From: Candidatus Iainarchaeum sp.
GTDB taxonomy: Archaea; Iainarchaeota; Iainarchaeia; Iainarchaeales; DTGL01
DNA: 50,092 nt
Direction: 5' to 3'
Assembly (NCBI GenBank): GCA_026396995.1
Contig: JAPLVS010000068.1
Location: 1 to 50,092, forward strand
Both the position numbers and the translations under genes were made by a program. The first letter of the stretch is position 1. Every line of letters starts with the position of its first letter. A model generated the notes under the pieces. That model saw only the letters and a list, made by a program, of their open reading frames with translations, was not told the origin of the DNA and ran no database searches. Positions 41,849 to 48,634 of the stretch are shown here, in pieces.

Positions 41849-43165
41849 ATGAAGCCAAGGCAGAGGAAAAGCCACGCTTTCCCAAAACAGAAAGCCGAGG
41901 CAGAACAGGCCGAAGCGCAAAACCCAGATGCGAGGTTTTCCTACACTTTCCAATTCGAACCCACTGCCAGCACAATGGCATACCGAAGGGCAGGGAGAAA
42001 AAGGGTTTCGCTGCCAATGCTGGCAGGCTGGCTTGACTCGCCAGATCCGGCAAAAAAACTGCTTGCAGCAAAGTCCATTGCCAAGTTCAAGCCCCAGACG
42101 CTGGAAAGGAATCTGAGCGAAGGGCAGCTGGTGAGGATTGCAAGGTTCGGCGGCTGGCCTAAAACACAAACGCAAGGCCAACAGGCACTGGCAATAATGT
42201 ACGCAAGGAAAGGCCCTGACGCGATATGGGCGCTCAAGGCAATGGCTGAAGGCCCGATATTTGAATTAAGGCCGGCTGCAGCCGATGCACTGGCAATGAT
42301 TTATGCAAAAATAGGCCCTAAAGCAATTCCCGAACTCAAGGGATTGCTTGAAAGCAAAAACCTATTCATAAACAACGCTGCGGGCCTCGCGCTTTTTGAA
42401 ATCTATTCCAAAATGGGAGCGGACGGCTGGGAAGAGATAAGGAAAATGCAGAAAGGCGAAGGCTATCCGATAGTGCCTGGCGGCGCATTGCTGATGCAGG
42501 AAGCAATCGAAAAGAGGGAAGGCATAACTGGGAGGCAAAAGAAGGTCAGGGAAAGGCTCGAACTGTTCCCGGAAGGCAAGGAGCGGAAACTGCTCCTTGC
42601 GGCAAGGGAACCGGCTTATGCCACCCCGCAAGCCAGGGCGCTTTTGAGGAGGACAGCCCTGATAAACCAAATCGCAGGCCAGCTCGAGGCAAAATATGGC
42701 AGGGCATTTATTGGAATAGTGGTTTTCGGGAGCGCCTCAAAAGGCTATTTCAAAAACGTTTCCGACCTGGACTTTGCGGTTATCGCAAAAGACGAGGCTG
42801 TTGCGGAAGAATTCACGCAGATCGCAGGGCAATACGAATGGTTGAGGCCCTGCATGAGCCATTTCGTGAACCCCGGCGGGAAGCAAAACCAGGCTCCGCT
42901 TTTTGCAGGCATTTTCTTCGGCAACAGGAAAAGGCTGCAAAACGCCCAGAAAAAAGCATTCAGCAGCAGGACTCCCGAACAATGGGATATAACCCGCGCG
43001 AAAATAGCCAAAGACGAAACAAATCTCCTAAAGGCCTTCGACAGGTTTGGAATCAAAAGCCCGAAAGAGCAAAGGAGATACATTGCTGCAGCCGCAATGA
43101 GAGTGCCGCCCCCATACAATGAAATGAAGGCGCTGATGGAAAGCAGGCGGCGCCAAAAGCGCTGA
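41849..43165 (+). CDS. HEAT/PBS-lyase-like repeat protein fused to a MNT-type nucleotidyltransferase
   Basis: RPAAADALAMIYAKIGPKAIPELKGLLES; IGIVVFGSASKGYFKNVSDLDFAVIAKD (GS...DxD). Confidence 0.75.
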   Translation: MKPRQRKSHAFPKQKAEAEQAEAQNPDARFSYTFQFEPTASTMAYRRAGRKRVSLPMLAGWLDSPDPAKKLLAAKSIAKFKPQTLERNLSEGQLVRIARFGGWPKTQTQGQQALAIMYARKGPDAIWALKAMAEGPIFELRPAAADALAMIYAKIGPKAIPELKGLLESKNLFINNAAGLALFEIYSKMGADGWEEIRKMQKGEGYPIVPGGALLMQEAIEKREGITGRQKKVRERLELFPEGKERKLLLAAREPAYATPQARALLRRTALINQIAGQLEAKYGRAFIGIVVFGSASKGYFKNVSDLDFAVIAKDEAVAEEFTQIAGQYEWLRPCMSHFVNPGGKQNQAPLFAGIFFGNRKRLQNAQKKAFSSRTPEQWDITRAKIAKDETNLLKAFDRFGIKSPKEQRRYIAAAAMRVPPPYNEMKALMESRRRQKR

Positions 43166-43202: not shown

Positions 43203-43286
43203 ATGCCGGTTTCTTTCCAGTCCGAAAAGCACTCCGATTCGGAAATGAAGAGATTCAGGGGAAATGAACTCTCAGCCCATTTATAA
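43203..43286 (+). pseudogene. Short ORF, possibly the truncated 5' end of a native gene
   Basis: MPVSFQSEKHSDSEMKRFRGNELSAHL* just before the AT-rich block. Confidence 0.25.
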
Positions 43287-43352
43287 ATAATCTCCGCATA
43301 AAATAATTACATGCACTGTGCTCAGTTCTGAATTAGTTTGTGAGGAGATTTT

Positions 43353-44492
43353 TTGCAAAAATTGTGTTTTAATGGGGGGATAAGGAGAAAAAATAAGGGC
43401 GGAATTTACCTTACAGTCTATTCCACGCCTTTTGCGAGATTTCTTCTGGAAAACGGCATTGACAGAATTAGCCTTGTTTTTAACGGCAATTCATTTGTAA
43501 TAAGGAGGGGCAAGAACAGCAAGGTAACCATGGAGCGCCTGAACAGAAATCAACCGCTGTGTGTTTTTTCAGTTACAAAAATTATCCCAAACTCACTAAA
43601 AGAAAAAGCCATTACTTTACGCCGGCAACTGAGAGTAAATGTTTTGGTTGAAAATTTTTGCTCCGAAATAGATATAAGGAAACATAATAAATCTGTCAAT
43701 TCACTTGAGCCTTCAAGTAGGATGGAACCCGTTAAAGAAAATGAAAAAATTGACATTGGCTGTGCCATCACCTGCTTTCGGTCAAAAAACAGTTCTTTTT
43801 ATAGGTTCTCAGTAAGGCACAGAATACTCGAAGAAATAGCAGATAAAAAGGAGGAAATTATCTTAGGAAGAGAAAAAAACGGCAATTTCACCATTAGAAA
43901 AAATCCAAAAGGAAAAAAATTACACCTATACCGCTATCCAAATGGCCACCCGCTTGCATATTTGCAAATATCCCAAAAATTCCTGACCAAAAAAGAGAAA
44001 GAGATATTCAAAAATGGCCGAAGGAGCATTTCTTACAGGGCTTTTCTTTCGGAAAAAGAATTTGAATTGGATATTAGTAAATTTTTTAACGCCAAGGAAG
44101 AAAGAGAATTAGCATATTCTTTACTTAAAAAAGGAGTAGAAATCAGCATCCCGAAAATGGGAGAAAGACAGGGGGATATTATTCTGAAAAAGTCCGGAAT
44201 TCAAATTGAAATAACCAACCTTCTGCCGGGCAAAGCCTCGAATAAAAATAACGCCCACGGAGAAGGCATCCACATTAACGGGCGGCTTTGTGAAGGATTT
44301 CTCAGAGTAAAAAAGCAGGAAACTCCTTTGTTCGTTGTTGTCTTCAACGAAAGGTGGGTTGAACAAAAATGGGTTGAACAACTAGTTCAACAGGTAAAAC
44401 CGGAAGTAATTGTCATCACAACAAATTTTAAGGACGATTGGGCCGAAGATGTTTCCCGCAAAATAGTTAATGCAGCAAACAAGGTGCTTTAG
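43353..44492 (+). CDS. Uncharacterized protein with C-terminal PD-(D/E)XK-like core, AT-rich
   Basis: TTG start with GGAG SD; EERELAYSLLKKGVEISIPKMGERQGDIILKKSGIQIEITN...LFVVVFN; stop directly abuts the lhr ATG. Confidence 0.7.
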   Translation: MQKLCFNGGIRRKNKGGIYLTVYSTPFARFLLENGIDRISLVFNGNSFVIRRGKNSKVTMERLNRNQPLCVFSVTKIIPNSLKEKAITLRRQLRVNVLVENFCSEIDIRKHNKSVNSLEPSSRMEPVKENEKIDIGCAITCFRSKNSSFYRFSVRHRILEEIADKKEEIILGREKNGNFTIRKNPKGKKLHLYRYPNGHPLAYLQISQKFLTKKEKEIFKNGRRSISYRAFLSEKEFELDISKFFNAKEERELAYSLLKKGVEISIPKMGERQGDIILKKSGIQIEITNLLPGKASNKNNAHGEGIHINGRLCEGFLRVKKQETPLFVVVFNERWVEQKWVEQLVQQVKPEVIVITTNFKDDWAEDVSRKIVNAANKVL

Positions 44493-47078
44493 ATGATTGA
44501 ATTTGAAACAGAACCAGCCACCGATAAAGAAATATTCGATTCGCTTAACCCGCTACTTTCGAACTGGTTTAAGCAAACATTCGGCTCTTTCACCGAACCT
44601 CAGAAATATGCCATCATGAATATCCACAGCCTAAAAAACACCTTGATTACTGCCCCAACCGGGACTGGAAAAACACTATCTGCATTTACCGCTATTCTAA
44701 ACGAATTAATTTCTCTCTCGGAATACGGCCAGCTGGAGGATAGGGTTTACTGTATCTATTGCTCCCCGCTCCGTGCTTTGAGCAACGACATTGAAAAAAA
44801 TCTGAAAGAGCCCCTGGAAGAAATCACCGAAATAGCAAAAAAACAAGGAAAGAAAATCAACATACGCGTTGCAGTACGTACTGGCGACACTCCGGCAAGT
44901 GAACGGGCTAAAATGCTAAAAAAGCCGCCCCACCTCCTGATTTTAACGCCCGAAACATTAGCCATAATACTCAACAGCCCAAAATTTATTGAACATTTGA
45001 AAGGAACAAAATGGGTTATCATAGACGAAATCCATTCGCTTGCAGAAAACAAGCGCGGCGTGCACCTGAGCCTTTCGCTTGAAAGGCTGCAGGCATTGAA
45101 TCCGGACATCTGCCGCATCGGCTTAAGCGCCACGATTTCGCCTTTGGAAGAAGTGGCAAAGTTTTTGGCAGGCATGGAAAACGAAAAGGAGGAAAGGGAC
45201 TGCAAAATCGTGAATGTGCAGTTCACTAAAGGATTGGACCTGAAAGTCTTGAGCCCATTGCCAGACCTGATTAACACCACTGCGGAGCAGGTAAGCGAAA
45301 AATTGTACGAAAAACTCGATGAACTTATTCAGGCGCACAAAACCACACTTGTTTTCACGAACACGCGCTCTGCAACCGAAAGGGTTGTGAACCATCTCAA
45401 GGAAAAATTCCCAGGCAAATATGAAGGGCAGATCGGCGCACACCATTCATCGGTGAGCAGGGAAAAAAGGCTCAGCATAGAGGACAGGCTCAAGAAAGGC
45501 GAACTGAAGGCTGTTGTGTGCTCGACAAGCCTTGAGCTCGGCATAGACATCGGTTACATCGACCTTGTGGTATTGCTTGGCTCGCCAAAGAGCATTGCAA
45601 GGGCGCTGCAAAGAATCGGGAGGAGCGGGCACCATCTCCACGACACGATAAAGGGCCGCATAATTGTTCTGGACCGCGATGATTTGGTTGAATGTTCGGT
45701 TCTGCTGAAAAATGCGATAGAGCAGAGATTGGACAAAATCAGCGTGCCGAAAAACTGCCTTGATGTGCTTGCACAGCAGATTTACGGGATTGCGATTGCG
45801 GACAAAATCCATGAAAGGGATTTGTTCAACCTTGTGAGGAAAAGCTATTGCTATCACTCGCTTTCAAAAGCGGATTTCAACGAGGTCATATCCTACCTCA
45901 GCGGCGAATATACCTCACTTGAAACAAGGCATGTTTACGCGAAAATCTGGTACGACAAGGAAACAGGAATGATTGGAAGAAGGGGAAAATTCGCGCGCGT
46001 GATATATATGACCAATATCGGCACAATCCCTGACGAGGCGCACATAAAGGTCAAAATAGGCAATCACACAATCGGAAACATCGACGAGAACTTCCTTGAA
46101 AGGATGAAAAAGGGCGATGTTTTCGTGCTCGGCGGCGAAAATTTCGAATTCAAGTTTTCGCGCGGAATGACAGTGCAGGTGAAGGCAGCGGAATACAGGC
46201 CGCCGACAATTCCCACCTGGAGCTCAGAAATGCTTCCTTTGAGCTTCGATTTGGCCAACGAGATGCAAAAATTCAGGTATCTGATGGAGGAAAAACTAAA
46301 AGCGGGAATGAAAAGGAAAGAGGCAATGGAATTCCTCCAGAAATACCTTTACTGCGATGCGAATGCCGCCGAAGCGATTTTCAATTATTTCAGCGAACAA
46401 TACCGTTATTCCAAAATCCCGCACGAGAAGAGGATGGTCATTGAGCAGGTGAAAGAAGGGGATGAAAATTCCATCATATTTCATTCGCTTTACGGCAGGA
46501 GGGTGAACGATGCCCTCAGCCGCGCGTTCGCTTGGGCTCTCTCGAAAACAGTGCACACCGATGTCATGGTGAGCGTGAACGACAACGGCTTTGTGCTCAC
46601 AACAAACAAAAAAATGCCGATAGAGAACGCATTTACAGTGCTCGAAAAAAACGATTTGAAGGGAGTGCTCGAGAAAGCGATAGGAGATTCTGAAGTGCTC
46701 AAGAGAAGGTTCAGGCACTGCGCCACCCGCTCGCTCATGATTCTGCGCAATTACAAGGGCCGGGAGAAAAGCGTGGGAAAGCAGCAGATGAGCGCAAGGC
46801 TTCTTCTTAGCGCGGTAAGGGGAATTGACGATAATTTTTCAATCCTTAAGGAGGCAAAGCGCGAAGTGATGGAAGACCTTATGGATATCGAAAGTGCGAA
46901 AAAAGTCATCGCGATGGTGAATTCCGGCAAAATAAAAGTGGAAAAGCTCCAGCTCGAAACGCCGAGCCCTTTCGCTTTCGGCATTTACGCGATGGGCCGC
47001 ATGGACCTGATGAAAATGGAATCAAGGCTCGAATTCATCAAAAGAATGCACGAAAAGGTGCTAAGCAAGATAGGCTAA
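44493..47078 (+). CDS. lhr: Lhr-family DEAD/H helicase
   Basis: LITAPTGTGKTLSAF, YCSPLRALSNDI, WVIIDEIHSLAENKRGVHLSLSLERL, IGLSATISPLEEVAKFLAG, VVLLGSPKSIARALQRIGRSGH. Confidence 0.95.
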   Translation: MIEFETEPATDKEIFDSLNPLLSNWFKQTFGSFTEPQKYAIMNIHSLKNTLITAPTGTGKTLSAFTAILNELISLSEYGQLEDRVYCIYCSPLRALSNDIEKNLKEPLEEITEIAKKQGKKINIRVAVRTGDTPASERAKMLKKPPHLLILTPETLAIILNSPKFIEHLKGTKWVIIDEIHSLAENKRGVHLSLSLERLQALNPDICRIGLSATISPLEEVAKFLAGMENEKEERDCKIVNVQFTKGLDLKVLSPLPDLINTTAEQVSEKLYEKLDELIQAHKTTLVFTNTRSATERVVNHLKEKFPGKYEGQIGAHHSSVSREKRLSIEDRLKKGELKAVVCSTSLELGIDIGYIDLVVLLGSPKSIARALQRIGRSGHHLHDTIKGRIIVLDRDDLVECSVLLKNAIEQRLDKISVPKNCLDVLAQQIYGIAIADKIHERDLFNLVRKSYCYHSLSKADFNEVISYLSGEYTSLETRHVYAKIWYDKETGMIGRRGKFARVIYMTNIGTIPDEAHIKVKIGNHTIGNIDENFLERMKKGDVFVLGGENFEFKFSRGMTVQVKAAEYRPPTIPTWSSEMLPLSFDLANEMQKFRYLMEEKLKAGMKRKEAMEFLQKYLYCDANAAEAIFNYFSEQYRYSKIPHEKRMVIEQVKEGDENSIIFHSLYGRRVNDALSRAFAWALSKTVHTDVMVSVNDNGFVLTTNKKMPIENAFTVLEKNDLKGVLEKAIGDSEVLKRRFRHCATRSLMILRNYKGREKSVGKQQMSARLLLSAVRGIDDNFSILKEAKREVMEDLMDIESAKKVIAMVNSGKIKVEKLQLETPSPFAFGIYAMGRMDLMKMESRLEFIKRMHEKVLSKIG

Positions 47079-47881: not shown

Positions 47882-48634
47882 ATGAATGAAAAGAAAGAAA
47901 TTCTCAAAGGGATGAGGCCAGTTAATCTTGGCCTCTTCTTTGAAAAGGAAAAAATCCTTGCAATCGCAGACCTGCATTTGGGTTATGAGGAAATGCTGAA
48001 CGCGCAGGGCGTTTTCTTGCCGCGCACGAATTTTGAAAAAATCAGGAAGGCTCTGGATGAAATGCTCAAGGAATTGCCAAAATTAGACATAATCGTCATC
48101 CTCGGGGACTTGAAGCACGAGTTCGGCTTCATCTCGCAGCAGGAATGGAAGGAAGTCATCGAAATGCTCCAGTTCCTGCAGAAGCACTGCAAAAAAATCG
48201 TGCTCATAAAAGGAAACCATGACAAAATTTTGGGACCGCTTGTGAAATGGGAAGGACTCAAAATCGAGGAAGAATTCTACATAACCAAGGCGGGTGTTTT
48301 GTTCCTGCATGGGGATAAAATTTCTGCAAGCGATAATTTCCAGAAAGCGAAAACCATCGTCATTGGCCACGAGCATCCCGCGGTTTCATTGAGGGAAGGG
48401 ATAAAATCTGAAATGTTCAAGTGCTTCCTGAAAGGCAAATTCAAAGGCAAAAATCTGGTCATATTGCCGAGCCTTGACTTGGTTTCCACAGGCACAAACA
48501 TTTTGAGGGAAAAACTTCTCAGCCCCTTCCTTAAGCAGGATTTGGGCAATTTCGAGTGCTGGCTTGTGGAAGACAAGGCGTATTATTTCGGGAGACTAAC
48601 GGAACTGCGATACAAAAATATATTAACAAGGTAA
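47882..48634 (+). CDS. Metallophosphoesterase (PdeM/archaeal SbcD-like)
   Basis: ILAIADLHLGYE, VILGDLKHEFG, VLIKGNHDKI, VIGHEHPAVS. Confidence 0.88.
   Translation: MNEKKEILKGMRPVNLGLFFEKEKILAIADLHLGYEEMLNAQGVFLPRTNFEKIRKALDEMLKELPKLDIIVILGDLKHEFGFISQQEWKEVIEMLQFLQKHCKKIVLIKGNHDKILGPLVKWEGLKIEEEFYITKAGVLFLHGDKISASDNFQKAKTIVIGHEHPAVSLREGIKSEMFKCFLKGKFKGKNLVILPSLDLVSTGTNILREKLLSPFLKQDLGNFECWLVEDKAYYFGRLTELRYKNILTR

Follow-up and report, generated by a model that had tools for sequence, protein, structure and literature searches.

What is the gene that directly precedes lhr, a helicase gene, in this archaeal draft genome, and does it belong to one system with the helicase? The genome is G000 in our coding (genomes are coded Gnnn and loci Lnnn), and the window is the whole stretch of 50,092 nucleotides that was analysed. 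Gene X is the open reading frame at 43353-44492 (+); it starts with TTG, encodes 379 amino acids and ends with a TAG stop codon at 44490-44492, and the ATG of lhr at 44493 is the first base past this stop. The sequence GAGGAG at 43342-43347 (+) is probably its ribosome binding site, and a putative TATA-box-like element (TTTATAAATA) was read further upstream at 43280-43289 (+). A sequence-only reading had described a TTG-start gene behind a GGAG-type Shine-Dalgarno sequence that abuts the lhr start codon (44492/44493), and we could confirm this, together with the peptide segments quoted there, which are present in the translation. The locus had been given correctly as well, whereas the stated length of 380 amino acids is reached only when the stop codon is counted.

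The downstream gene (44493-47078, +) encodes Lhr, as it matched NCBIfam PRK13767 with 1257 bits against a cut-off of 849, and represents a native host gene for an aLhr2-type helicase. Further downstream, a profile match identified a TIGR00024 metallophosphoesterase (47882-48634, +), which usually adjoins lhr in this archaeal order according to our neighbourhood survey. On the upstream side, a gene at 41849-43165 codes for a protein with a nucleotidyltransferase-like domain and HEAT-like repeats, each scoring close to its Pfam cut-off; nothing matched this gene in the corresponding region of the sister genome G001. Gene X itself looks foreign in composition: its GC content is 37.6% and its GC3 38%, compared with 47.7% GC for the window and a GC3 of about 0.55-0.61 for the neighbouring genes, in agreement with the earlier remark that the gene is AT-rich. 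It is a real gene and not a chance open reading frame, because a full-length homolog (55-56% identical) is also found directly 5' of lhr elsewhere. This sole close homolog belongs to G055, a genome of the same order and a different family, where it runs into lhr with an overlap of 14 nt.

Searches of gene X against Pfam, NCBIfam and PADLOC gave nothing above the cut-offs, a search of PHROGs and a sequence search of the PDB were likewise without a match above cut-off, and no relatives were found in viral, phage and plasmid collections. Relative to the libraries searched, the family is thus new. Using iterated profile searches, we collected 19 full-length members from 18 archaeal genomes (family X). 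The distant members came from G263, G424, G450, G439, G517, G011, G324 and G063, and further members from two other phyla. The weak matches of the first round (G062, G118, G280, G409, G320, G330, G123 and others) were taken as chance. Another weak profile match (E 1e-4), at L119 598-1863 (-) of G725, is a protein with the motif MEITHTN whose gene converges on a DNA methylase gene; this protein is possibly a restriction enzyme.

The distribution of the family speaks to the proposal that gene X and Lhr work together. Within the phylum, our search found gene X in 2 of 87 genomes, whereas Lhr was present in 43 of 87 at the threshold used; nearly all Lhr-bearing genomes therefore lack X, which does not support the earlier suggestion that the two form one system. 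The linkage to lhr that had been expected of homologs holds within the lhr subfamily (2/2) and fails for the family as a whole (2/19), 17 of the 19 members lying beside other genes. A dedicated nuclease-helicase pair for repair or defence would account for the fact that both members of the lhr subfamily abut lhr with no intervening gene. Nevertheless, most Lhr proteins of the phylum do without X, the usual partner of lhr is the TIGR00024 phosphoesterase, the relatives of X adjoin unrelated genes, and the number of PADLOC models of known anti-phage defence systems that matched gene X was zero. We therefore regard such a pair as very unlikely.

If not to lhr, to what are the members of the family linked? 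X is located directly 5' of lhr in two genomes, of kae1 in two, of ileS in four, of trm5/tyw2 in one and of elp3 in one, and directly 5' of tyw1 in three, to which one decayed copy must be added. Of the remaining copies, one lies between purE and purC and one downstream of rps3ae, while those arranged tail to tail with their neighbour adjoin ogt (two copies), NAC-alpha (one) and rpl11 (one). The start codons of lhr, kae1, tyw1, elp3, trm5 and ileS are abutted or overlapped by X, and in both kae1 copies the X frame stops on the same TGA within the first kae1 codons. In G439, a small AbrB/SpoVT-like open reading frame (MMEIKFKRQLRKSGGSAVVAIPKEVCDAIGIKLDDEIFIKIENKKIIL; L110 ~561-750, -) is divergent from the adjoining tyw1-linked X. 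In a tree of the C-terminal domain, the members clustered perfectly by neighbouring gene: the tree required 10 label changes, the minimum possible, compared with a mean of 14.2 changes after label shuffling, and none of 200 shuffles was as low as 10. More than one phylum is represented in each of the kae1, tyw1, ileS and ogt groups, and related copies are thus found at homologous sites in distant hosts. Since the members group by neighbour and the groups span phyla, we conclude that family X is keyed to sites and not to lhr.

The protein has a modular organization. Two related copies of a single unit seem to make up its N-terminal part (hhalign probability 46%, E 2e-4). Unit 1 (residues ~10-105; 43380-43667, +) is a probable DNA-binding unit, judging from its strands and helices in the AlphaFold2 (AF2) model and its likeness to unit 2. 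Alignments and the AF2 model place unit 2 at residues ~135-240 (43755-44072, +); it is common to the single-unit relatives at kae1 and elp3, which align with the gene X protein only from this unit onward. The tyw1-linked members have an HTH-like N-terminal stretch (HTH_3, 21.5 bits in G450, slightly under the cut-off). What all members have in common is the C-terminal portion of ~140 residues, in gene X a nuclease-like domain at residues 241-379 (44073-44489, +) that was delimited by the family alignment and modelled with a pLDDT of roughly 60-90. This domain resembles PD-(D/E)XK nucleases, with D...E-x-T/S replacing E-x-K: the candidate metal-binding Asp275 (44175-44177, +) is followed by the motif Glu286-Ile-Thr288 (44208-44216, +), and T or S occupies the position of the canonical Lys. 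The D and E-x-T/S are kept in 15 of 15 members outside the ileS branch, with the D displaced in the alignment of G263; the restriction-endonuclease-like layout with E-x-T for E-x-K that had been read from this protein alone is thus supported by its relatives.

An AF2 model from the single sequence had a pLDDT of 34 and was unusable, whereas a model from seven sequences reached a mean pLDDT of 62 and ~90 across the last 70 residues. The order of helices and strands in this model is compatible with a restriction-endonuclease-like core (alpha-beta-beta-beta-alpha-beta). In a Foldseek search with the model, the best PDB match had an E of 0.04, which is not significant, and the nuclease-fold matches (MUS81-EME1, XisH and BstEII) had E values of 0.1-0.4 only and were not significant either. 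A solitary nuclease of a restriction-like or toxin-like kind, moving among gene-dense genomes and coming to lie beside conserved genes by chance, would be consistent with the motif, and the weak G725 match with its ME-I-T motif does adjoin a DNA methylase gene; but none of the X genes was seen to have a methylase beside it, and chance insertion predicts neither the perfect clustering by neighbour across phyla nor the likely mosaic lhr gene described below. We consider this explanation highly improbable.

Comparison of congeneric genomes revealed sites with and without X. In genus g35, the lhr site measures 1217 bp in G055, which has X, and 102 bp in G063, with flanks that are 87% identical upstream and 81% identical at the start of lhr. 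In genus g287, X separates trm5 from tyw1 in G439, while the same interval in G436, G437 and G438 is a gap of about 18-44 bp; tyw1 itself is 74-81% identical across this comparison. Hence, at lhr in g35 and at tyw1 in g287, X is restricted to its site, with occupied and empty alleles among congeners. There are also decayed copies: the tyw1-linked copy in G568 has a deletion of ~220 amino acids and a frame change, the same genome holds frameshifted ileS-type fragments, and a remnant of 60 amino acids adjoins the 3' end of pdxS in G182. In G055, the place 5' of tyw1 that is taken by X in G063 is filled by two overlapping open reading frames (L103 2393-3085 and 3019-3705, -), which may be one frameshifted gene. 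One of them has a LAGLIDADG-like motif (Pfam 15.6 bits, below the cut-off of 22.5), and a PDB search with it gave no match.

The lhr gene of the window probably has a mosaic 5' end. In a nucleotide tree, its first 200 codons group with G055 and G063 (UFBoot 99). Family-level vertical placements were rejected by nucleotide AU tests on all codon positions (p 0.011 and 0.030); with positions 1+2 only, the family placements had p values of 0.049 and 0.092, and amino-acid AU tests on Lhr residues 1-120 and 1-300 did not reject vertical descent (p 0.12-0.37). GC3 is ~0.47 in the first 200 codons and 0.61 thereafter, and the GC3 test on the first 300 gave p 0.0045, while a value <0.05 was obtained for just one of the 12 control lhr genes. 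By contrast, residues 301-861 of Lhr group with their own family, and their grouping with G063 was rejected (AU p 2e-59). A site-pattern test for mosaicism had first seemed significant, but residues 51-300 yielded comparable fractions in control genomes; because the site-pattern count failed this control, it was replaced by the tree and composition tests. We take the first ~200 codons (44493-45092, +; boundary approximate) as a candidate co-conversion tract, which on the strength of the nucleotide tree, the nucleotide AU tests and GC3 is likely, not proven. At the 5' end of lhr, G063 falls into one group with the window and yet has no X there. The Lhr proteins of G063 and its congener G055 also have inteins, at different sites: in helicase motif VI in G055 (L005 11366-13126 and L041 2772-5048), where the C-terminal contig has a LAGLIDADG_3 match (53.5 bits), and in the Walker A motif in G063 (L059 6042-10346). 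Inteins in aLhr2 were already known (PMC8301817).

We infer that gene X is probably a free-standing, intron-less, homing-endonuclease-like mobile gene of the lhr subfamily of family X. We favour this reading because of the foreign composition, the presence or absence of a single gene between shared flanks, the target-keyed subfamilies across phyla, the position of X at the very edge of its neighbour, the likely mosaic lhr, the conserved acidic residues and the decayed copies, and also because lhr carries inteins in genus g35 and the arrangement resembles that of the T4-type enzymes described below. The N-terminal units would probably be responsible for recognising a long DNA site in the 5' part of lhr, and the PD-(D/E)XK-like C-terminal domain (D275, E286-x-T288) would probably cut lhr alleles without the insertion. 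Homologous recombination would then repair the break and thereby copy X and some of the flanking lhr sequence into the recipient. The new copy would land just 5' of the lhr start codon, so that lhr stays intact and translatable, and the other branches of the family would have done likewise at the borders of further conserved genes.

Several results weigh against the homing-endonuclease reading: the canonical Lys is replaced, the fold matches are not significant, the amino-acid AU tests do not reject vertical descent, the site-pattern count failed its control, and G063 has no X at lhr. Its main difficulty comes from the ileS branch, in which A replaces the catalytic E in four of four members. 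In these (L109, L116, L117 and L118), 'IAIS/IALF-SHxAK' is found where others read IEIT, and SHxAK is newly conserved. Since the linkage to ileS is nevertheless kept across phyla, which homing alone does not explain, this suggests a retained non-catalytic role or a different active-site layout, and domestication or regulation is possible for this branch. More generally, recurrent linkage to the same neighbours could be a sign of function. The members might then be gene-specific cis-regulators or accessory factors, whose subfamilies are co-transcribed with the adjoining gene and control or assist it; at least those of the ileS branch would use the nuclease-like fold to bind. Such a role would fit the same-gene linkage across phyla, the start-codon overlaps, which allow translational coupling, the many tRNA and translation genes among the neighbours and the E-to-A replacement itself. 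We find it unlikely for the family, however: the neighbour set includes functionally unrelated genes (lhr, purC, ogt), the convergent orientation of some copies precludes co-transcription, X is very rare and patchy (2/87 genomes in the phylum), congeners have empty sites, lhr is likely mosaic, and 15 of the 19 members keep the D and E. A broader proposal, which we make tentatively and hold to be quite possible without leaning towards it, is that family X comprises undescribed free-standing homing endonucleases of archaeal chromosomes with a D...E-x-T/S site, each branch being keyed to one edge of one universally conserved gene and the ileS branch having become a non-catalytic gene-specific factor.

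If gene X is indeed homing-endonuclease-like, the family would show how selfish genes persist in streamlined, small-genome archaea without introns or inteins, parked on the chromosome next to the ends of genes for translation and repair. It would also explain patchy 'operons' that otherwise seem functional, and would be a source of new site-specific nucleases with targets that can be guessed from the neighbours. The locus thereby cautions that tight gene adjacency need not mean partnership.

Phages are the best-known source of free-standing homing endonucleases. Those of T4 lie between conserved genes, cut a neighbouring gene in genomes that lack them and are copied together with the flanks (PMC2988022). 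The Seg GIY-YIG and Mob HNH enzymes of T4-like phages, which spread by 'intronless homing' (PMC2988022), are likewise single nuclease genes of patchy occurrence between conserved genes, and X would share with them a target in the neighbouring conserved gene and the co-conversion of flanks. Unlike them, X is found on archaeal chromosomes, would have another nuclease fold class, has copies that overlap the edge codons of the neighbour, and has a putative cleavage activity. From type II restriction endonuclease-like, Mus81-EME1 and XisH-type folds, to which the modelled X has weak, non-significant matches, it differs by the absent methylase partner and by T/S for the catalytic Lys. The homing endonuclease I-Ssp6803I is intron-encoded and of the canonical PD-(D/E)XK class, and differs from X in both respects, in a comparison made by description. 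PD-(D/E)XK is one of six recognised homing endonuclease families (PMC6083498, PMC3943268), and this bacterial enzyme (PMC3943268) has the same fold class as proposed for the C-terminus of X. Finally, the pair of Lhr and MPE (TIGR00024) is a conserved archaeal lhr neighbourhood (PMC8301817) that is seen in this order too: MPE is the usual neighbour of lhr, whereas X is inserted only occasionally, and on the opposite side.
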